DNA from: a virus
Virus record (IMG/VR): IMGVR_UViG_3300029258_005029
Span: 1-33,075 of that record
Reading direction: 5' to 3' (one strand)
Length of the DNA stretch: 33,075 bases
Shown: positions 4,951-22,100 of the stretch, in pieces
Layout of the letters: every line of letters begins with the position of its first letter
Numbering within the stretch: the stretch's first letter is position 1
Position numbers and translations under genes: made by a program
Notes under the pieces: generated by a model
The model's input: only the letters and a program-made list of their open reading frames with translations
Told to the model about the DNA's origin: nothing
Databases searched by the model: none

Positions 4951-5577
4951 ATGAGCATGACGCTTGCAACTTTAAAATCGGAGACCCGGTCGTTGTTGAA
5001 TGAGCCGGCACAAGAGTTTTTTGACGATACGGAGATCGAGCGATGGTTGCAGCAGGCTGCAATCGATGTCTCCCGGGTCGCGCTTTGCGTGGAAGGGTCC
5101 GCCGAGGTGGGGCTTACGACGGACACCCAAGAATATTCTTTGACCGGCACGGACGCGGTTGATGCGATTAAAATCCATGCCGTGATTTACGACGAAAAGG
5201 GGTTGATGAAGATCGACCCCCGGATGATCGCCCATATCACCGGCACCGCAAGCGGCACCCCTGCGTATTGGTACGACTGGGGCGGTTCCATCGGGTTTTG
5301 GCCGGTCCCGGATTCGGATTGCAACGGCACGTCCGCGGACTTGTATTTCAGCGAAGAGACGGACGATGTGACCGAGATTCCGGATGAGTTTCAACTCGAT
5401 TTGCCTCTTTATGCGGCGAGCCGGGGCAAGATCAAGGAAGGGAAATTCGCGCAGGCCGCACAACTCCAACAGATGTATCTCAATTCCGTGGCGTTCCATC
5501 GCCAGAATCTCCATGAGCGCGGCCGCGACAGCAAGGACATGATGAAGGTCCCGGACCGGACCGTGCAGGCTCAATAA
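4951..5577 (+). CDS. Head-to-tail adaptor-like protein (short form)
   Basis: A 208-residue protein with the typical layout of podovirus-type adaptors. It opens with helices (SETRSLLNEPAQEFFDDTEI, then ERWLQQAAIDVSR), continues with a strand region (EYSLTGTDAVDAIKIHAVIY), then GTPAYWYDWGGSIGFWPVPD, EIPDEFQLDLPLYAASRGK, and a long C-terminal helix. It probably binds below the portal and carries the nozzle, which is the next gene. GGGAGGG at 4936-4942 is a strong ribosome binding site. A hairpin separates it from the nozzle gene. Confidence 0.7.
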   Translation: MSMTLATLKSETRSLLNEPAQEFFDDTEIERWLQQAAIDVSRVALCVEGSAEVGLTTDTQEYSLTGTDAVDAIKIHAVIYDEKGLMKIDPRMIAHITGTASGTPAYWYDWGGSIGFWPVPDSDCNGTSADLYFSEETDDVTEIPDEFQLDLPLYAASRGKIKEGKFAQAAQLQQMYLNSVAFHRQNLHERGRDSKDMMKVPDRTVQAQ

Positions 5578-5591
5578 AACGTTTTACCCCC

Positions 5592-5633
5592 CCGTCCTTT
5601 TGTTCCGCCCGCAGCGGCAGGGGCAAAGGACGG
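5592..5633 (+). promoter_or_regulatory. Hairpin just upstream of the nozzle gene
   Basis: CCGTCCTTT (5592-5600) and AAAGGACGG (5625-5633) are exact reverse complements around a 24-base loop that can form a smaller CCGC/GCGG stem. No T-tract follows. The Shine-Dalgarno of the next gene (5643-5648) begins 9 bases later, an arrangement similar to the hairpin at 618-643. Confidence 0.5.
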
Positions 5634-5655
5634 ACCGCGGTAGAGGAGAAGCAGG

Positions 5656-8600
5656 GTGACCCGGAAACTCGATGACAAAGAGAAACCGGTCGTTCAGGCG
5701 GTGCGGGAGCCGGAGGTTCCAATCGGCGTAGAGCCTACCCCGGACCGGGAACGAATCGAAATCAAAGCCCCAACCGCACCGAGGTCGGAGACGCCCACGG
5801 CCGGAGATGCGTTCACGGTGGAGCCGGGCATGCGGCCCTCCCCTGCCGTGGAGACGCCCACGGCCGGAGATGAGTTCACGGTGGAGCCGGGCATGCGGCC
5901 CTCCCCTGCCGTGGAGACGCCTACGGCCGGAGATGCGTTCACGGTGGAGCCGGGCATGCGGCCCTCCCCTGCCGTGGAGACGCCTACGGCCGGAGATGCG
6001 TTCACGGTGGAGCCGGGCATGCGGCCCTCCCCTGCCGTGGAGACGCCCACGGCAGGGGATGCGTTCACGGTGGAGCCGGGCAGACGATTCCCCCCTTTGG
6101 TAGACCTGACGCCTGCGGGCGATGCCTTTACCGTCTATTCCCATAGAGTTCCTATTTATCAAACGAATATTCAACCGGCCCGGGACGATTCCAGGATCGA
6201 GCCGGGCCGCAGGCTTTCCCCCGCCGCCGATCTGCCTGTGGCCCCGGACCGGGAGACAATGACCCCGGCCGGGACCGGCCGGCCCCCCACGGATGTGCCG
6301 CAGAGCCCGGACACGGAACGGATCGAGCCGGTCCGACGGCCTGCACCGCCTACGTCCACGCCCGCCGGGCCGGACACCGAGATATTGAGCGCCGCACCGG
6401 CGTTGCCGTCTCAGGAGATCCGCCCGGCCCGGGACGAGGAGACGCTGCGGAAGCAGTTTTTTTTCATCGGCGAATGGATCCCGGATGCGGACCCGTTGAA
6501 GATCGGGGAGGAAAACTATGAGACCCTGGAAAATTACCGCTACAATTCCCGCGGGATCGAAGGGGTGCAAGGCTACCGCAAGGTGAACACCCGTCCCTTG
6601 ATGGTGTTGCAGAACAACATTCAGACCGAATTCAGCGAAACGGACCCCTCAAGCTGTTTCAGTGTGGGCGAAAACGGAATCGAAGCGACCAGCGTGAGCC
6701 AGGATGCCGCGGCCGCGGTGTCGTGCGATTACGGTGCGAATTTCGCCGGAGATTGGGAGCATCAATTGTTGGTGACCGCTTCGGGGACAAGCGACGACAG
6801 CCGGTGTTTTGTGTGGGGCTTGGGGACCGAAGAACATAAGGATTTGCTGGATGCGCTGCAAACCGGTCTCGGGATTTACAGCCTGTATCACGCCACGGGA
6901 ACCACATGGGATTTGCGGATTCAGGAAAACGTGACCGGCACGACCCGGGATGCGGAAGCGGCTTCCGGCTTGACCGCAAGCACATCTTACTGGGTGCGGC
7001 TGATACACGATGCGGACGGGGCCTCGAACGGCCGGTTGACCGTGGAAACCTGGTCGATGGATGCGGCCGGAGATTTGGATTCGTTGGTGCAATCCGCGAG
7101 CATGGACCTGGACGCGGCTTTGACGTCGCACCGGTATTTGTTTTTGGCATGCGCCTACAACGACGGGACCGCGAACCGGGAATGGTCAGGGAATGCGCCG
7201 TCTTATCTCTTTGTAATCGCGGAGGATTTGCCGGCCGGGTTTTACTACAGGAAAGACACGCCGGCAGAGGAAAGCTATTGCGTGGTGCAAGCCGAGGATT
7301 TGAAAAGCGGCTTGAACCGCTTGTTCGTGAACGAGACCGCAATCGGCGATCAGGGCCAATTCGAGGACCGTTCCGGAGAGACTTTGTTGACCGAATCGGA
7401 AAACGGGGGCTTGGGTCGTTTTGCGCTTTGGCCCCGCAACACCCTGGCGTATGCCAACGGCCGGGACGTCAAGGTTTGGGCCGGGGAGAAGGCCCCCGTC
7501 GCATGCGCGTTTACCGTGGACTCCACGCCCACGGGGGTCAGCTTCGATAATATGACGGATTTTACGGCCCAGGCCAACAACACTTTGGATGATGCGGACC
7601 AGGTGGTGCGCGTGGGCGGCGGAAACAATTCGGATTGCGTGTTGCTGCTCCACGGCGACGGCACCGACGGAAGCACGACCATTCCGGATAGTTCTTCGGG
7701 CGGGGGCCACGGCAACGCGACCGTCGTCAACTCGGCCCAACTCGACACGGATCAAGCCAAGTTCGGCGTGTCGTCCATCAAGTTTCCGGCAGTTGGGGAT
7801 TACATCACTTTTGCGGACAGCGACGATTGGGACTTCGGCTCAGGGTGTTTCACCATCGATTTTTGGATCCGGTTCGAGACGGCCCCGAGCGCAACCAGTA
7901 TAACTATGATTTACCAAGGGACAGGATCAACGGATTGGGAATTGGGATGGAATTATGGAACCGGTGCCCTTTACTTTACCGCGCAAAACAGTGGAAGTCA
8001 GATATTCCAACTTTTTAGCACTTTTTCTTTCGATGCGGACCGTTGGTATCATATCGCGGTCGTGCGCGGATGGGGAGGAGACACGGACCTGCTGGCCCTT
8101 TGCGTGGACGGCACGGCGCTGGGCACTGATACGGCCGAAAATACGGGCGTCATGCCGAACGCAACCACTACGCTGAGAATCTTAAGCTATCACAATGAAG
8201 CCTGTTGGGTGGATGAATTCCGCATCCTCAAAGGCGCGGCCGCGTGGACCGCGAATTTTTCTCCGTCCGCCTCGGCGTATCGGACCGCGGACAATGTGCT
8301 GGTATTGGGGACCGAACGGCCCGCGAGTGCGTTTCACATCGAGACGGCTTCGGCGAATTCCGAAACCGGCGCCACCCTGGACGGCAAGGCCCATAACGGG
8401 GCTTCTTGGGCCGACATAGCCGATTTTACGGACAATACCTCCGGGTTCGACGCGGACGGCGAAGTCGCCCTGAGTGCGTCGGCGTTTGAAGCCGCGGATA
8501 CCGTGCCCGTGTACATCGCGGGCCGGTATCTGCATTGGTATGCGTTGGTCCTAAGCGGGGGCCAGGCGGACCTCAAGCGGATCACCTGCGAGATGCCGCC

Positions 8601-10224
8601 CTCGGATGTACAAGATTTGTGGGACGGGGTGTACCGCGCGTGTGCGTTGATGAAGGTGTACCACTCTTCGACGTGGACCGAGTCCACCTTGCTTGTGGCC
8701 GAAGAGACCCCGAGCGGCATCAGCGATCCGGCCAATTATGCGCCGAATGTCGGGGGGTTGACGTCGTCGGAATACATCGAATGCTATTTCACCGAACGCA
8801 TGACCGCCATAGAGTTGACGATGTGGACCCGGACGAGCGGGAAGGTGAACACCAACTCCGCGGACATCGCGGTGTATTACTGGACCGGGTCGAGTTATGC
8901 CGCGTGCCGAAATGTGTATGATTTTACGAGCGCGGGCACGGCCGTGTGCTTGAAAAGCTCCGGGGTGCTGCAATGGACCCCGCCTGATTTTGTCGAAGAG
9001 GCGCAGAAGGTCGTGGACGGGGTCCCGCTTTGGGCATACCGGATCATGGTAACGGCCACGTTGTCGTCGGATGTGTACATCGACCGGGTGCGCGGGATCA
9101 CGGCTCCTAAGAAATCGCCGAAAGGCTATGTGTTTCCCTTCACGTTCGCCAACCGTCCCATGCTGTGCGGGTATGCGGCCGGCGGCGAAGGCCACCGGGC
9201 AGATTACGGCATGACCGACGCGGTGAGCGTGTGGAACGGGGAAGATTCGAGCGACGGGAACGGATCGCTCTATTTCGGTTCCGGCGGAGAACTCACGTGT
9301 GCGTGTCAGGTGTATAACCGGTTCGGGTCGAACATCTATAACACGGCTATTTTCTGCAAAAAAAACGAGACCTGGCTCCTAAACGGCTACGATGCCGACA
9401 CCTGGCGCATCTATCAGCTCAGCGGGCGCGTGGGCTGCCCGGCCCCCAAGACGATGGATACCGCGGAGATGGGGTACGGCATGGCCGCGGATGCGGTACG
9501 GCATGTGGCGTGCTGGCTCAGTTATCAAGGCCCGGTGATCTGCGATGCGGGCGTGATTTCCATTCACAAAGAGCGGATCAGCCACTTTTTCGACCCGGCC
9601 CATGCGGCTTGCATCAACTGGGACGCGGTGGAAGAGGCGGCCGGATGGGTGGACCCGAGGCGGCAGGAATACAATCTTTTGCTGCCCACGGGATCGAGCA
9701 CGGTTCCGGACCGGTGGATTTGCTTTGATCTGCATCGGAAAAAATGGTTCGAGAAGGTTCCCGCCGGAGACACACCGTACCCCCGGGCCGGGTTCCGCAC
9801 CGTGGATGAGTACGGCCGGCAATTGGTGTATGCGGTGTTCGCAAACGGGTATATGCGGCAGTTGGAGACCGGCACGAGTTGGGACGGCAGCGCGATCACG
9901 GCGAAGGTCAAGACCGGGGACCATGTGCCGACCGGAGACATTTGGGATAAGACGCGCATCCGCAGGGTCAAGCTCCTGTTGGACGCGGTTTCCGAAAGCA
10001 CCGCGGTGAGCATCGATCATTACGCGGACGGAGGGTCGTCCGCGGACGGCTTGACGAGCGTTTCCGCGGACGGAAGCAACCGGTTTGTGAAAGACACCCA
10101 GGCCATGAACTACGTCGGGTGGAGCCATCAGTTCGAGATGCAGGTGGAGACTGAAGAGGAAGAGACCGGCGTGGCGCTTCTCGGCTGGGGGTACGAATAT
10201 CAAGTCGTGAGGGAGGATACCTAA
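5656..10224 (+). CDS. Large tail nozzle-like protein with repeat N-terminus and LamG-like insertion
   Basis: A 1522-residue protein that starts at GTG, with GAGGAG at 5643-5648. Residues 1-260 are proline-rich and made of about 21-residue repeats. From residue about 270 (GEENYETLENYRYNSRGIEG) it follows the pattern of podovirus tail nozzle or stabilisation proteins. Residues about 660-875 look like a LamG/concanavalin-like lectin domain (LLLHGDGTDGS, FTIDFWIRFET, DRWYHIAVVRG, WVDEFRILKGAAAW). The C-terminal third has nozzle-like elements: FCKKNETWLLNG, RVGCPAPKTMDT, LSYQGPVICDAGVISIHKER, then YNLLLPTG...WICFDLHRKKWF, consistent with beta-propeller blades. It would form the end of the short tail; the lectin-like domain may touch surface glycans. 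I saw no protease or lyase motif. The fold is inferred. Confidence 0.75.
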   Translation: MTRKLDDKEKPVVQAVREPEVPIGVEPTPDRERIEIKAPTAPRSETPTAGDAFTVEPGMRPSPAVETPTAGDEFTVEPGMRPSPAVETPTAGDAFTVEPGMRPSPAVETPTAGDAFTVEPGMRPSPAVETPTAGDAFTVEPGRRFPPLVDLTPAGDAFTVYSHRVPIYQTNIQPARDDSRIEPGRRLSPAADLPVAPDRETMTPAGTGRPPTDVPQSPDTERIEPVRRPAPPTSTPAGPDTEILSAAPALPSQEIRPARDEETLRKQFFFIGEWIPDADPLKIGEENYETLENYRYNSRGIEGVQGYRKVNTRPLMVLQNNIQTEFSETDPSSCFSVGENGIEATSVSQDAAAAVSCDYGANFAGDWEHQLLVTASGTSDDSRCFVWGLGTEEHKDLLDALQTGLGIYSLYHATGTTWDLRIQENVTGTTRDAEAASGLTASTSYWVRLIHDADGASNGRLTVETWSMDAAGDLDSLVQSASMDLDAALTSHRYLFLACAYNDGTANREWSGNAPSYLFVIAEDLPAGFYYRKDTPAEESYCVVQAEDLKSGLNRLFVNETAIGDQGQFEDRSGETLLTESENGGLGRFALWPRNTLAYANGRDVKVWAGEKAPVACAFTVDSTPTGVSFDNMTDFTAQANNTLDDADQVVRVGGGNNSDCVLLLHGDGTDGSTTIPDSSSGGGHGNATVVNSAQLDTDQAKFGVSSIKFPAVGDYITFADSDDWDFGSGCFTIDFWIRFETAPSATSITMIYQGTGSTDWELGWNYGTGALYFTAQNSGSQIFQLFSTFSFDADRWYHIAVVRGWGGDTDLLALCVDGTALGTDTAENTGVMPNATTTLRILSYHNEACWVDEFRILKGAAAWTANFSPSASAYRTADNVLVLGTERPASAFHIETASANSETGATLDGKAHNGASWADIADFTDNTSGFDADGEVALSASAFEAADTVPVYIAGRYLHWYALVLSGGQADLKRITCEMPPSDVQDLWDGVYRACALMKVYHSSTWTESTLLVAEETPSGISDPANYAPNVGGLTSSEYIECYFTERMTAIELTMWTRTSGKVNTNSADIAVYYWTGSSYAACRNVYDFTSAGTAVCLKSSGVLQWTPPDFVEEAQKVVDGVPLWAYRIMVTATLSSDVYIDRVRGITAPKKSPKGYVFPFTFANRPMLCGYAAGGEGHRADYGMTDAVSVWNGEDSSDGNGSLYFGSGGELTCACQVYNRFGSNIYNTAIFCKKNETWLLNGYDADTWRIYQLSGRVGCPAPKTMDTAEMGYGMAADAVRHVACWLSYQGPVICDAGVISIHKERISHFFDPAHAACINWDAVEEAAGWVDPRRQEYNLLLPTGSSTVPDRWICFDLHRKKWFEKVPAGDTPYPRAGFRTVDEYGRQLVYAVFANGYMRQLETGTSWDGSAITAKVKTGDHVPTGDIWDKTRIRRVKLLLDAVSESTAVSIDHYADGGSSADGLTSVSADGSNRFVKDTQAMNYVGWSHQFEMQVETEEEETGVALLGWGYEYQVVREDT
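5788..6102 (+). repeat. Five tandem 63-base repeats encoding a 21-residue Pro-rich unit
   Basis: Units begin at 5788, 5851, 5914, 5977 and 6040. The first four are almost identical; differences seen are an Ala-to-Glu change in unit 2 and a silent C/T change in units 3 and 4. The fifth diverges in its second half. Each encodes ETPTAGDAFTVEP plus GMRPSPAV. More degenerate copies of the same 'D-x-x-x-I/V-E-P-x-R-R' pattern continue to about 6440. The unit length is a multiple of 3, so copy number can change without a frameshift. Confidence 0.95.
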
Positions 10225-13797: not shown

Positions 13798-16700
13798 ATG
13801 GCGATTAAAAGCATTGCAGAGCTTGACGACTGGGTGACCGGGGAAACGGCACCGGCAGAGCGAACAGCGCAACCGGCCCCGGCCCAACCCCGGGGTTTTT
13901 TTGGAGAAGCCGCCAGTGCCCTGGGGATGGGCATCATTCAGACGGCCAAGAGCATCGGCGGAGCCCTGGAAATGGCCGGGCTGGAAGCCGGCGAACGCAT
14001 GGTGGACTATTACGGGGAGGTGGAGAAGTCGCCGTCGCTCCGGCGGCCCGAGCATTTGCAGCAAGACACCGTGCTGGAGCACCCCGAACGCTTGAAGGAC
14101 TGGCGGTGGTGGGTGCGGATGGCCGGGGAAAACCTGCCCACAATGGCGGCGATGATGCTCCCGGGCGCAACCGCGATGAAGGCGGCCCAGGCCGGGCTCA
14201 AAGGGGTGCAGGCCGGGAAATTTGCGGCCCTGGGGATCCGCGGGGCCCGGGCCGCCAAGATTTTGAGCAAGGGCCGAAAGATCATCAAGGGCGCGGCCAC
14301 GGCCGGGGGCTGGACCGGCGCGGCCACGGTCGAGTCGGGCGCGGCCTATAACGACGCCAAGGAGGAGATGCTCCGGGAGGGGTACGACCCGGACCTGGCC
14401 GAACGGATCGCCACCCTGGAAGGGCTCACGGTGGGGACGGCCAACGCCATGCTGGAGACGGCGCCCTTCCTGGAAGCGCTCTTCGGCGGGGTCGGAAAGA
14501 AGGCCCTTACCCGGATCGTGCGCACGGCCCTTTTCGAGGGCACGACCGAGACGGCCCAGGAGGCGGTCAATATGCTTGTGGCCCAGGCCGGGCACGAGCC
14601 GGATATCACCACGCGGGAAGCCCTGGGCCGGGCCCTGGAGAGCGGCATCGCCGGGTTGATGTTGGGCGGCGGAGCCGGAGCCGTGATCCGGGGGGAAAGG
14701 GATGCGGCCCGAAAAGACGAGGAGGACACGAAGAAAAAGAAGAAAACGGAGCAGGAACAACCGCTCGGAGCCGCCCCCGATCAGGTCGCCGAGACGGTTC
14801 AGGCCGGTCCCCGGGCCCGGGCGGAAGAAGAACGCCGCAAGGTCGAGCACCAAAAGGAAGTCAAGGAAAAGGCTGCCGGGCTTTTGGCCGAGATCGAATC
14901 GGAGGTGCAGCCCGGACCGGTTTATGAGGGTGCAGAGGGCAAAGAAGTGCCTGCGGAGGAAAGACCGGCCCTCACGGCCCCCGCGGAGCGCACAGAGAGA
15001 AGGCCGTCGCTCGCGGAATTTGCAGAGGAAGAGGAAGAGGCGCCGGAGAGCCCCGCCGGGCAAGGGGTTTCGGAGCCGGCTTCGCAGGAGCCACGAGAAT
15101 CGACGATCTCGGATGAAGGCATACCTAAGCCTTCACTTTTTGTGGAGGTGGGCGCCCGGATTAGAAGCGGAAGCGTTGAGGGCGAAATCATCGAGGACCG
15201 GGGCAAGAAATGGGCTGTCCGATCCGACGGCGGGATGACGGTGATCGTGCCCAAGGACGGGCCCATCGAGGTGCTGGGGCCGGCAGAGGAGAAGAAAGAG
15301 CCCGCCGCAGAGCCCAAAGGGGGCTCAGAAAAAAAACCGACGCCGGCAGAGGTTTCCACCGATCAGGAGGAAAAAGAAGAAGAGGCCCCGTTGCCTTCTT
15401 CCATGCCGCCGGGGATGCAGGCGAAGTACCGGGAGATTGTCGGGGAGGCCGAACGCCGGTTGCATGAATTGGAGGTGCAGGGCAAGCCGACGGACACCCG
15501 GGCACCGGCGTATGTGGAAGCGTTAAAGAAAGTAGAGGCCATCCGCGGAACCGTCGACCGGCTCAGGAATCAACAGGAGGCCGTCGACAAGGGGTATAAG
15601 CGCGGGGATCCCAAAAAGCTCCAAGAGACCCTTGAGCGCTTACAAGAAGACCTTGATCGGACGGACCTGGACGACCCCCGGTACAATCCCGTCCCCGAAG
15701 CGGATTTGAAACGGGGCGGAAAGGAAATCAAGGACCCCTGGAACGACCGGAAGATCACCAATTACAAGAAACGGGGGGACTATTATACCGGGATCGTGTG
15801 GAGCTACGAAGACAGGGAGCCCTCTTACTGGTTCGCGAGCCGGGAGGATTACGGGGCCCTGCCTGAATCTGAGAAGGCCGAAGGCAGACCGCGATTGGAC
15901 GGCATCGGGAGCACGGAAGCGCGGGCCGTGGCCCACTTGGAAGAAAACATCCGGAAGGATGCGTCCCGGGACGCCCTGCTCAACCGCACGGACTTTTCCC
16001 GCGAGGAGCTGAAGGGGGTGGGGAACGTCACGCTCCGCCAGATTGCCAAGCATCGGGACATCCCGAACTGGCAAAGGAAGCAGACAAAGACCCTGATCGA
16101 CGAAATCCTGGACGGGCAGCCGCCCCGGTCGGGGGGCGAGGTAATTGAGTCGGCGCCGGGGGAGGAGCAGAAAGGCCCGGGGTTTAAGCCGAGTAAGACG
16201 GTTGAGCCGCCCAAGATCGAGCACCGGGGGGGTGGCAAGAGCCTGACGGGGGGAAAGCCGCTCGCAGAGCCCGCAGAGGGTGCGGAGAAGACGGGCGGGG
16301 AGGCGCAGCCGGAGACCGTCTACGGGAAGGTGTTTAAGGGAATTCCCGTGGACAAGCCTGCGGCTGAGCTGACCGACGAGGAAATGGACCGGATTCTGGA
16401 GCCCGATGGGAACAGCATGAGGCTCCGCAACAAGGAGCTGGGGGAATACGAGGTCGACCCCCGGTTTCACGTGATGGTGAAAAAGGGAGAGCCCGGGTAT
16501 CAACCGTCGTGGAAGGCAGACCGGCAACCCGTGCGGACGGATTTCCGTGCGGTGCGCGAGTACCTGAAAACGGGCAAATTCACCACGCCGTTCGGGGAAC
16601 AGATCGACCGGCTCTCCGGGGTCATGCAGGCCCGGGGGATTGCGGACCCGAAGGAAGCGCTCGGGGCTGCATCCCGGGTGCTCCATACCATCCGGACCGG

Positions 16701-18036
16701 CGACCAATTCCGCGCAAAGGGGTTTTACCCCACCAAGGCCGGCGGAAACACGGTCAAGGTCATGCGGCGCGTGTTCGAGGAAATGACCGGAGAGAAGCTC
16801 CCCCGGACCGTGAAAGGCACCCGGGAGTTTTTTAAAAACCGCGAGGGGTCTTTTTTCGTGGTGAAAGGCGTTGAAGACCTGATCCGGGAGACGGAACCGG
16901 GCAGTAAGGATGTGCCCGCCCCGGAGAGCCCGAAGCCGCAGAAAAAGGCGGAGAAAAAAGCGCCGGAACCGAGCCCGCGGGCGCCGGTGGAGATGGGCCG
17001 CGATGCGCTCCGGGCGTTCGCGGAAGAAGAGGGGCTGAAGGTTTCCACGCAAACGGCGAGTTGGGATGCGCTCTTCACCCGGGTGCGCGATGCCCTGCTC
17101 CGCAAGCAGGGGAAGGAGCCCCGTAAACGGGGGCCGGCCACGGAGGAGATTAAGAGGTTCAAACCCGGGGACCGGGTGGTCTTCGAGGAATTTGAGGGCG
17201 AAAACGAGGGCGGTCGGGCCGAGGCCACCGTCGCCGAGATACCGGAAGAGCACCGAAAGGCGGGCACCCTTCCGGTGATCGACCGGGAAGGGAGCCGCCG
17301 GGTCCTGCCGGCCGACAAGGCCTATCTCGCCATGCCGGAAAAGGAGAAGGGCGTCACCGCAGAGCCCGCAGAGGGCGCGGAGAAGACGGCGCAGCCTGCG
17401 GACAAGATGATCGGGGTGAACAGCGAGGGCCAAAAGATTTATGAGAACGAAAAGGGCCATCGCTATGTGATCGAAAAGGTGGGGGGCAGCGAGTTTAAAA
17501 CTTTTGAGCCGATTCAGTGGCCCCAGGGGACGCCCCGGGATCGCAGGCCAGAGCAGTATACGCCCGTTTCGTCCATGGCGGGGTTGAAGGAGAAGCAGGA
17601 GAAGGCCCCCGGGAAGATCAAGGATGCCTTGAGCGGGAAGGGCAACAAGTTTGAAAAAGCCGCAATTCAAAAGGCAAAAGAAATCGCCGGAGCACTGGAA
17701 CCGGGTAAGGAAGCCTATGTCGGCCCGCAATTCAGCGTGGAGGTGGGCGGAAAAGAAAAACTGGTCGGATCGGAATTTTATTTGAGAAAGGCCGGCCTGG
17801 AACCCGGGAGCGACGCGAATTATTGGAAAAAGCCTGCCGGGCCGACGGCGCCGGCGGACCTGACGGTCAAGCCGCCTGCGCTGGAGGACCTGACGATCAA
17901 GACCCGGGCCATTGTGGAGGAGACCGGGGAGCTGACCAAGGAAGCGGTGAACGAGGAGAACGCGGCGGAGGCGGTTTCCGAGATCGACGAGAAGACCGAG
18001 CGGCTCTATGAGCTGATCGAGTGTATCGAGGTGTAG
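13798..18036 (+). CDS. 1412-residue polyvalent-type protein, probably packaged and ejected
   Basis: I recognise no single family; the architecture resembles phage large polyvalent proteins. Residues 30-300 are mostly small-residue and hydrophobic (ENLPTMAAMMLPGATAM; ESGIAGLMLGGGAGAVI), suggesting membrane contact. Residues 300-440 are charged and disordered. Residues 451-490 form an SH3-like barrel candidate (VGARIRSGSVEGEIIEDRG). Residues 733-775 look like a SAP/Rho-N-like helical motif (TLRQIAKHRDIPNWQRK). Residues 1066-1180 combine another such helical motif with an FKPGDRVVF SH3-like segment, and this pair recurs at the start of the giant gene at 19165. Residues about 1205-1235 (MIGVNSEGQKIYENEKG) resemble a motif common in such proteins. 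No enzyme motif is evident. It probably travels with DNA into the host. Confidence 0.75.
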   Translation: MAIKSIAELDDWVTGETAPAERTAQPAPAQPRGFFGEAASALGMGIIQTAKSIGGALEMAGLEAGERMVDYYGEVEKSPSLRRPEHLQQDTVLEHPERLKDWRWWVRMAGENLPTMAAMMLPGATAMKAAQAGLKGVQAGKFAALGIRGARAAKILSKGRKIIKGAATAGGWTGAATVESGAAYNDAKEEMLREGYDPDLAERIATLEGLTVGTANAMLETAPFLEALFGGVGKKALTRIVRTALFEGTTETAQEAVNMLVAQAGHEPDITTREALGRALESGIAGLMLGGGAGAVIRGERDAARKDEEDTKKKKKTEQEQPLGAAPDQVAETVQAGPRARAEEERRKVEHQKEVKEKAAGLLAEIESEVQPGPVYEGAEGKEVPAEERPALTAPAERTERRPSLAEFAEEEEEAPESPAGQGVSEPASQEPRESTISDEGIPKPSLFVEVGARIRSGSVEGEIIEDRGKKWAVRSDGGMTVIVPKDGPIEVLGPAEEKKEPAAEPKGGSEKKPTPAEVSTDQEEKEEEAPLPSSMPPGMQAKYREIVGEAERRLHELEVQGKPTDTRAPAYVEALKKVEAIRGTVDRLRNQQEAVDKGYKRGDPKKLQETLERLQEDLDRTDLDDPRYNPVPEADLKRGGKEIKDPWNDRKITNYKKRGDYYTGIVWSYEDREPSYWFASREDYGALPESEKAEGRPRLDGIGSTEARAVAHLEENIRKDASRDALLNRTDFSREELKGVGNVTLRQIAKHRDIPNWQRKQTKTLIDEILDGQPPRSGGEVIESAPGEEQKGPGFKPSKTVEPPKIEHRGGGKSLTGGKPLAEPAEGAEKTGGEAQPETVYGKVFKGIPVDKPAAELTDEEMDRILEPDGNSMRLRNKELGEYEVDPRFHVMVKKGEPGYQPSWKADRQPVRTDFRAVREYLKTGKFTTPFGEQIDRLSGVMQARGIADPKEALGAASRVLHTIRTGDQFRAKGFYPTKAGGNTVKVMRRVFEEMTGEKLPRTVKGTREFFKNREGSFFVVKGVEDLIRETEPGSKDVPAPESPKPQKKAEKKAPEPSPRAPVEMGRDALRAFAEEEGLKVSTQTASWDALFTRVRDALLRKQGKEPRKRGPATEEIKRFKPGDRVVFEEFEGENEGGRAEATVAEIPEEHRKAGTLPVIDREGSRRVLPADKAYLAMPEKEKGVTAEPAEGAEKTAQPADKMIGVNSEGQKIYENEKGHRYVIEKVGGSEFKTFEPIQWPQGTPRDRRPEQYTPVSSMAGLKEKQEKAPGKIKDALSGKGNKFEKAAIQKAKEIAGALEPGKEAYVGPQFSVEVGGKEKLVGSEFYLRKAGLEPGSDANYWKKPAGPTAPADLTVKPPALEDLTIKTRAIVEETGELTKEAVNEENAAEAVSEIDEKTERLYELIECIEV
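16264..16294 (+). repeat. 31-base dispersed direct repeat, copy 1
   Basis: It matches 17359-17389 with one mismatch and in the same reading frame. It encodes AEPAEGAEKT in a linker between domains. Confidence 0.9.
17359..17389 (+). repeat. 31-base dispersed direct repeat, copy 2
   Basis: Second copy of the repeat at 16264-16294, again encoding the AEPAEGAEKT linker. It lies just after the SAP/SH3-like module of the same protein. Confidence 0.9.
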
Positions 18037-18899: not shown

Positions 18900-19124
18900 A
18901 TGTTGAGCCAGTGCTTGGCAACACGGGGGAAATGCGGCGGCGGGAGCCAGGGCGTGGCAACGGCCGGAAAGTACCCGATCCGGGCCGTGGTCGTGGTCGT
19001 GTCGACCGAGGAACCCGTGATCGGTGCTTACGGCGGCAGCGTGCCGTCGGGGCCGAGCGCGAAGCGGGACCGGGACGAGCTGGTCGAGCTGATCGTGATC
19101 CTGGCCGGTGCGGATGTGTTGTAG
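18900..19124 (+). CDS. Small hypothetical protein
   Basis: A 74-residue frame. The C-terminal two-thirds look protein-like (YPIRAVVVVVSTEEPVIGAYGG, then DELVELIVILAG). The N-terminus is less convincing, and an in-frame GTG at 18954 could be the real start, giving about 56 residues. The purine-rich GGAGGG near 18878 is somewhat far from the ATG. It fills the space between two certain genes in the same direction. No family is recognised. Confidence 0.5.
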   Translation: MLSQCLATRGKCGGGSQGVATAGKYPIRAVVVVVSTEEPVIGAYGGSVPSGPSAKRDRDELVELIVILAGADVL

Positions 19125-19164
19125 AAAATCGATAAAGAGATGAAGGCGGGGTGAAAAGAAAGTT

Positions 19165-22100
19165 ATGGCGAGTTTGGCGTATTGTCTGGATTTAAAGGCA
19201 CACCGGGATGCGTTTTCCGACGCGGAGAAGAAACGACTCATGCGCCTTGCGAAAAAGTACGGGAGCGACAAGGAAGCCGTGCTCGCCTATATCAACGAGC
19301 TGGCCGAGGAAAAAGAGCGGATTTACACCCAAGCGGAGGAGAAAGGGTGGGCGCGGCCGGCGGTCGAGAAGAAGGGGGAAAAGCCCCCCGAGACACAAGG
19401 GCCGGAGCAAGAGAAAAAGACGTTTCGGAACCTGTCCCACATGGAACGGGATGAACTGAAGCAATTCGCACGGGACAACGATTTAAAAATCAAACGAGCG
19501 AATCAATTAGGCTGGTTCGATCTTTTAAGAGAGGTGCAAGGGGCATACAACAAAAAACAGGGCTTAACCGTTGTCGATGTTATCGAGAGCCCCGGGATCG
19601 CCGTCCGCAATTTTAAACCGGGCGACCCGGTGGCATGGGAAGGCGGGAACGGAAAAGAGGAAGGCGAACGGATGTTCGGGTATGTCGCGGAGATCAAGGA
19701 CGAGAACCGCCGAACCGGCAATCTGACCATATCCGAAAAGAAAGGCGGAAACGGCAGTTGGCTGGTTCCCGCCAATAAGATGGTTAAAGTTCCGGAAACC
19801 TTGACAAAAGAAGAAAAAAAGCCGAAAATAAGCGAGGAGGAAACAAAAGATGACGAGCGTAAGCCTGAAACAACTAAAACGGATCAAGCCGGAGCAGATC
19901 GACCTGGATCACCCGGAGAGGGAGCCGGATTTCAAGAACCACCTGCGCCACCTGTTACAGAATTATCCGCAGGTGACCGGGGACCTGGCGTGGAACCGGC
20001 CCAAGGAACTGAAGGCGAGGCTGGAACGGGTGACCAAGCGGGCGATCTTACAAAGGATCATTCTGAAAAAGGAGGGACGACTCGCCCCGGATCAGATCGA
20101 GGAGGCCGTGCGGGAGATCGTGGCACCGCACGACAGCCCGGTGGACCTGGGGGAGGAACCGGAACCGCTTCCGGAGGAGGACGAACTGAGGATTCTGGCG
20201 TGGGCGGACAACCCGGACGGCCCCCCGCCGATACCCTCGCAGAAGAAGACCGGGACCACAGAATCGAAGCAAGCGACGTTCTCTTCCCTGCCGGGCCTGA
20301 AACCAAAATCCAAACCAATATCAAAGCCGTCCGACTTTACAAAAAGCTCGTAGCCGAAGACCGAAATCCCACCCCCGAAGAAAAAAAGAAACTGGCCCAG
20401 TATGTGGGATGGGGCCAGTTTGCGCAAAAAGTCTTCAATCTCAAACCCTATAAAGCCTACCTGGACGCCGTGGCCCGGGACCCGGAAGTCAAGCGGAAAC
20501 CCGAGGATTTCCTTTACGGCACGGACCTGACGAAATACCTGGACTGGGAGAAACGATACGGCCGGCACCTCCACCCGGACCTGGGCGGGGTCTTGACCCC
20601 GGAGGAGTGGGACTCGGCCGAGCGGAGCACGCTGAACGCCCATTACACCTCAAAGGATGCGATCACGGCCATGTGGCAGGCCGTGGAGCATCTCGGGTTC
20701 GAGCAGGGGGTGATTGTGGAGCCGTCGGCCGGGGTGGGGCATTTCTTCGGGCTCATGCCGGAGAAGATTCACAAGAAAAGCGTTTTGATGGGGATCGAAC
20801 TGGACGAAATTACAGGCGGGATTCTTCAAAAGCTCTATCCCCAGGCGGATATTCAAGTCACCGGGTTCGAGAAGGCCCTGGGGGTGCCGGACAACTCGGT
20901 CGACCTGGTGATCAGCAATTTCCCTTTTGGAAACTACTCGGTTTACGACAAAAAGCATAAAGATTATACGGGCTGGTCCATTCACAATTATTTTTTCGCC
21001 CGGGCCATCGACGCGGTGCGCCCGGGGGGGCTCGTCATGGGGATCACCTCGCACTGGACCCTGGACAGTAAGACGGGCGGGCCCATGCGGGAATATTGGG
21101 CCCGGAAAGCGGACCTGGTGGGCGCGGTGCGCCTGCCCAATAACGCTTTCAGCAAGGATGCGGGCACGGAGGTGACCACCGACATCCTGGTTTTCCGCAA
21201 GAAGGACGGGACCGGTCACGGCCTGGGCCGGAACTTCCGGGTGGTGCGGGAGGTGGCGGCCGGGGACAAAACCGCGGAGGTGAACGAGTATTTTGCGGAC
21301 CATCCGGAGATGGTCCTGGGCCGGCACAGCCTCAAGGGGAAGATGCACGGCCGGCAGGCCGCGGAGGAGGAGTACACCGTCGAGCCCGTTTTCGGCCGGG
21401 ACGCGCTTCAGGAAAACCTGGCCAAGGCGTTCACGGCGCTTCCCTCGAACATCTACGGGGAAGGACAAGGAAAGGATGCGGCCGAGCGGGTCCGGGCCGA
21501 AGAGGGACAGACCGACGGGAGCCTGGTCGAGTCCGACGACGGCAAGATTTACATGGTGGAAGAGGGGCTTTTGAAAGAGCCCATGATGTTCGACAGCAAG
21601 GGCAATTATGTCAAGGCCATCAACACCAAGGCCCGGGAGCGCCGGGTCCGGGATTACCTGGCCCTCAAGGCCGCGGCGAAAAAGCAGATCGACCGGGAGC
21701 TTTCCGAGGATGCCACGGACGAGGAGATTGAAACGCTCCGGGCCGAACTCAACCGCCGCTATGATCGGTTCTACAAGAACAACAAAGCCTTAAACAGTGT
21801 CGCCAACGGATTTTTGCGGAAGATCGATATCGAGTTTCCCATTATGGACGCCCTGGAGACCGAGGCCCGGGAGAACATCAGCTTCAAGGTGCCCAAGGGG
21901 CAGAAAAACGCCGGCGAGCAACGGTTTAAATTCAAGTACACCTACACGAAGGGGCCGATCCTCCAAAAGCGGGCCCTTTATCCCTTCCGGGAACCGGAGC
22001 GGGCCGAGACCGTCGAGGACGCCATCGCTCTTTCCCGGGTCTACCGGGGCGGGGTATCGACCCGATACCTGGGGAAACTCCTGGGGCGGGATCCGGAGGA

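Follow-up and report, generated by a model that had tools for sequence, protein, structure and literature searches.

A TnpV-like gene nested out of frame in a giant phage DarB-like methylase-helicase gene, with both reading frames probably coding

The Rz/Rz1 genes are an embedded phage gene pair, in which a small gene lies within a larger one in another reading frame. To our knowledge, long same-strand nested genes have rarely been proven in prokaryotes, and such cases have often been blamed on misprediction. Polyvalent methylase-helicases of the P1 DarB type are giant multidomain phage proteins that combine an adenine methylase with a SNF2 helicase, and this dyad has been described in a survey of polyvalent proteins (Iyer et al. 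2017, PMC5512222), the text of which mentions neither an overlap nor TnpV (0 occurrences of either). TnpV (PF14198) has been described as a free-standing gene of Tn4451-type mobilisable elements, where homology with lambda Xis led to the proposal that it may act as an excision factor (PMC3158075). Mobilisable elements of Streptococcus suis that carry TnpV insert within snf2 genes (PMC9815147), and this type of insertion is a possible source of the association between TnpV and snf2.

The window analysed here is the whole virus record IMGVR_UViG_3300029258_005029 (33,075 bases). It holds a giant DarB-like ORF and, inside it, a separate ORF with start signals of its own, as a first-pass annotation made from the sequence alone had pointed out (Table 1). 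The giant ORF shares the common features of the DarB type: it matches phrog_10089 (DarB-like; E 2e-121, and 1.1e-205 in a second search), its adenine methylase domain and conserved N-terminal module align with those of eight relatives, and a SNF2-type helicase follows the methylase (PF00176, SNF2-rel_dom, E 5.1e-6, 26.2 bits against a cut-off of 24.9). A match to Eco57I was below threshold. The N-terminal domain of such methylase modules has been named LPD36 (PMC5512222), and that of the window's module is probably the same domain. This module served as the anchor for comparisons across loci, and the first 94 bases of its segment are shared with the nested gene. P1 DarB differs from the window in having no nested gene and in beginning near the methylase module; methylase-helicases can therefore work without the nested product. 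As in embedded phage genes like Rz/Rz1 (PMC9144972), a complete small gene lies inside a larger one on the same strand in another frame, but the proteins are unrelated to those of that pair and the host gene here is a giant virion-type enzyme.

Table 1. Features of the overlap in the window
Feature	Position	Strand	Basis
Giant DarB-like (polyvalent methylase-helicase) ORF, 3976 aa	19165..31095	+	phrog_10089 and SNF2-rel_dom matches
In-frame TAA, seven codons 5' of the nested start	19829..19831	+	
Shine-Dalgarno AGGAGG, 9 bases ahead of the nested ATG	19835..19840	+	
Nested TnpV-like gene, 167 aa, ATG start, +1 frame of the giant ORF	19850..20353	+	homologues, predicted fold
Giant-frame linker across the nested gene, Gly/Pro/Thr-rich, predicted disordered	19849..20256	+	
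Conserved N-terminal module and adenine methylase domain of the giant protein	20257..21246	+	

The third-position G+C content (GC3) of the first 60 nested codons had been put at about 80%, and that of the giant frame over the same bases at about 32%. Both figures are exact (0.80 and 0.317), and the latter is the lowest among the listed 60-codon windows of the giant ORF (mean 0.78, SD 0.11). In the window alone, the openness of the nested ORF is not significant (codon permutation, p = 0.22), and the giant frame remains open over it with p = 0.016. The window ORF taken by itself could be luck, arising from the codon composition of a GC-rich linker and giving no protein, and relatives were therefore needed to decide. 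Frame constancy among these relatives stands against such an accident, as do homologues, substitution phase, Shine-Dalgarno enrichment and a confidently predicted fold, and since the last four are decisive over the openness of a single ORF, we give chance a probability close to nil. An Rfam search of positions 19000-20700 of the window gave no match.

A tblastn search with the nested product on phage records and a scan of viral contigs gave no match, and the homologues were reached by way of the methylase module. Searches with the module found nine viral loci, each with an ORF in the same relative frame directly upstream of it; the ORF at 5501-5857 of one of these, L002, is an obvious homologue of that in the window. 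Between the two, the nested product is conserved at 43% and the giant-frame linker at 27%. The reverse pattern, a linker conserved over an unconserved nested product, was thus not seen, and neither were nested-frame stops in relatives, the nested ORFs of the family staying open. Two profile scans brought 160 further loci, and the collection covers phages, prophages and bacterial mobile elements. Three profile seeds, built from four window-like, four TnpV-like and six other sequences, converge on about 105 nested products, the window's included. It should be mentioned that designed helical proteins are among the matches of the family profile, so that its E-values are inflated, and specificity therefore rests on a control of position and frame. 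Against 17,301 six-frame segments, the profile gave 112 matches in the nested place and 25 elsewhere, 24 of the latter being also +1 to the methylase and nearly all of them farther upstream. A family match was found upstream of the module in 134 of the 172 loci with enough upstream sequence, and 135 of 136 upstream family matches are in frame +1, the lone exception coming from a locus with a masked stretch. It is noted that L032, L035-L039, L103, L136, L054 and L040 carry +1 ORFs in the same place, some of them with a Shine-Dalgarno site. Their products fall outside the TnpV-like family, and these ORFs may be nested genes that were replaced or have diverged strongly.

Substitutions were counted by codon position in 24 disjoint family pairs, some of which share one clade, so that the pairs are not fully independent. 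At giant codon positions 1/2/3 there are 620/379/312 substitutions in the overlap against 733/509/2157 in the methylase of the same pairs (chi-square p = 7e-131). The fast position in the overlap is therefore position 3 of the nested codons. The phase is reversed, and the giant-frame pattern kept, in pairs with no family member in the nested place (L110/L112 and L120/L153). A Shine-Dalgarno match of at least 4 bases was found at 93% of the family starts, against 36% of 1172 control overlapping ORFs selected and scored in the same way. The nested ORF is a genuine protein-coding gene and the more constrained frame over the overlap; the comparison of codon positions across relatives, suggested in the first-pass annotation, bears out its view that the nested frame is the one under selection.

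The giant-frame linker had at the same time been taken for readthrough of a non-coding frame. Its Gly/Pro/Thr-rich, low-complexity character is as described, and the model of the linker (35 members) is that of a disordered chain, with a pLDDT of 62.0, a pTM of 0.18, no strand and no helix of at least 4 residues. Together with the fall in giant-frame GC3, these features would suit a locus in which only the nested gene is translated, the giant ORF being separate genes joined by an accidentally open, untranslated frame. However, in 105 of 107 loci the giant frame runs unbroken across the full nested gene, and among 95 distinct members only 1 giant-frame stop was observed within the nested gene, where 200 are expected from codon permutation and 144 from synonymous permutation. 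Among the genomes and records searched, free-standing TnpV copies carry 2-12 stops in the giant-equivalent frame and copies inside a giant ORF carry none; one case, L148/L182 (both from one genome), has a single stop and may be decaying. Because of these three observations, the giant-frame linker is most likely translated, but disordered, and its description as non-coding readthrough is not supported. The detection of a DarB-like protein in JC1 virions by mass spectrometry, in which the contributing peptides are not specified (PMC9144972), also speaks against translation of the nested gene only, a reading that we consider very unlikely.

A weak sign of added constraint comes from the nested third positions, which change at a median of 0.73 of the methylase third-position rate (lower in 15 of 20 pairs, p = 0.04). 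Coding selection was thus found on both frames of the overlapping pair, on the nested frame by substitution phase and on the giant frame by stop depletion and the nested third-position rate. The opening of the methylase frame lies only a short way ahead of the nested gene in Verrucomicrobial loci. An ATG is present there, in most cases 340-385 bases ahead of the methylase module, and it usually has no recognisable Shine-Dalgarno site.

The nested product had been described as natural-looking and helical, and its AlphaFold2 model (72 members; pLDDT 88.5, pTM 0.73) agrees: helices are predicted through residue 120, with no strands of a wing and a loose tail, the core spanning about residues 1-130 and the low-confidence tail residues 131-167. 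Solved-structure and fold searches with the nested product gave no credible match (best VIA-align Z 4.0), and PADLOC gave scattered weak matches only. An Ulx-like match of L008 (E 0.12) was discarded.

Pfam TnpV (PF14198) is matched by 35 of 72 family members, with a best E of 2.9e-36; L006 scores 46.2 bits. The window product matched no Pfam family up to E 10 and no PHROG, and it does not reach the PF14198 cut-off (27 bits); having no direct match, it is named TnpV-like rather than TnpV. Its place in the TnpV superfamily is linked by profiles, since TnpV-like seeds recruit the window and window-side seeds recruit the canonical TnpV of L122, with E-values that are inflated. As judged from profile comparison, the tie is one that runs through intermediates. 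Compared with TnpV as described, the window copy lies inside a phage gene and has diverged beyond the reach of PF14198. Canonical TnpV genes are themselves nested in frame +1 of giant methylase-helicase ORFs in several Clostridia, and in a tree that combines nested with free-standing TnpV, the free-standing copies fall among the Clostridial nested ones, with weak support. In two RefSeq plasmids, 'TnpV protein' is the label given (L218, 4998-5336; L220, 4995-5348) where a methylase-bearing giant ORF of >2000 codons crosses; this giant ORF is absent from the gene table of PLSDB, a table with known gaps.

The family link to TnpV, along with the literature proposal for Tn4451, would be in keeping with an excisionase-like recombination factor, an alternative that concerns the function of the nested protein only. 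The phage copies, however, lie inside a virion-type methylase-helicase gene and not beside an integrase, and the predicted fold is all helical, so that we regard this function as unlikely.

We propose that the nested gene is real and that both frames are coding, one for a folded small protein and the other for a disordered linker, and we hold this with high confidence. The nested ORF would give rise to a small, mostly helical TnpV-like protein through independent initiation at its own start signals, an internal Shine-Dalgarno site and an ATG, within the giant gene's mRNA. A fusion of the two frames by programmed frameshifting, in place of a free small protein, would find a precedent in PBC5 (L011, AF448724, about 5067-5404), where the TnpV-like stretch forms the C-terminal part of the upstream orf33 and is overlapped by the methylase frame, which is -1 to orf33. 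Yet most of the nested genes come with a separate ATG and Shine-Dalgarno site, and the PBC5 arrangement could be either a natural fusion by a real indel or an old sequencing error; frameshifting thus appears a very remote prospect. With a free small protein and a translated linker, the giant frame would supply merely a disordered stretch ahead of the methylase module, and the nested frame therefore dictates the sequence, as the substitution phase, the homologues, the stop depletion and the predicted fold show.

One relative frame is common to phages, prophages and mobile elements, which therefore suggests one old overlap inherited by descent, the disordered linker being probably the younger coding layer. 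We lean slightly towards a single origin, with a TnpV-like partner carried out of frame in methylase-helicase genes across several phyla, and towards TnpV being largely an overprinted gene and not a transposon excision gene. As to function, a chaperone, a regulator or an excision factor are possible. Because the nested gene stays in cis with the methylase module, we tentatively favour a role as dedicated partner of the methylase-helicase as the likeliest one; such a partner could, for example, chaperone or regulate the effector, holding it in a soluble or inactive state up to the point at which it is packaged or transferred.

The nested gene is unannotated in nine phage records whose giant gene is on the correct strand (BcepIL02, VvAW1, Pavtok, SopranoGao, Atu_ph08, 8P, POI1126, Mwe-JY07 and Y7). 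The family profile finds no member in 8P and Y7, and seven of the nine records are therefore informative. In Itty13 (L216, MW460249), gene annotation has been placed on the other strand from the DarB-like frame. No description of this overlap was found in the literature covered, with subscription papers mostly outside the search. The overlap is thus one that is backed by independent tests over more than 100 loci and had escaped annotation in the phage records checked. It offers a candidate partner for a widespread antirestriction-type effector, and it places TnpV, a family whose function is unproven, in a new setting. The loci also form a large natural data set in which two frames have shared one sequence over long times.

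Two further large ORFs of the window were recorded. A 1412-aa ORF at 13798-18036 has a weak match to the virion RNA polymerase family phrog_2206 (E 0.0007), and a 1522-aa ORF at 5656-10224 carries a Laminin_G_3 domain (E 2e-13) together with matches to tail and virion-structural proteins.
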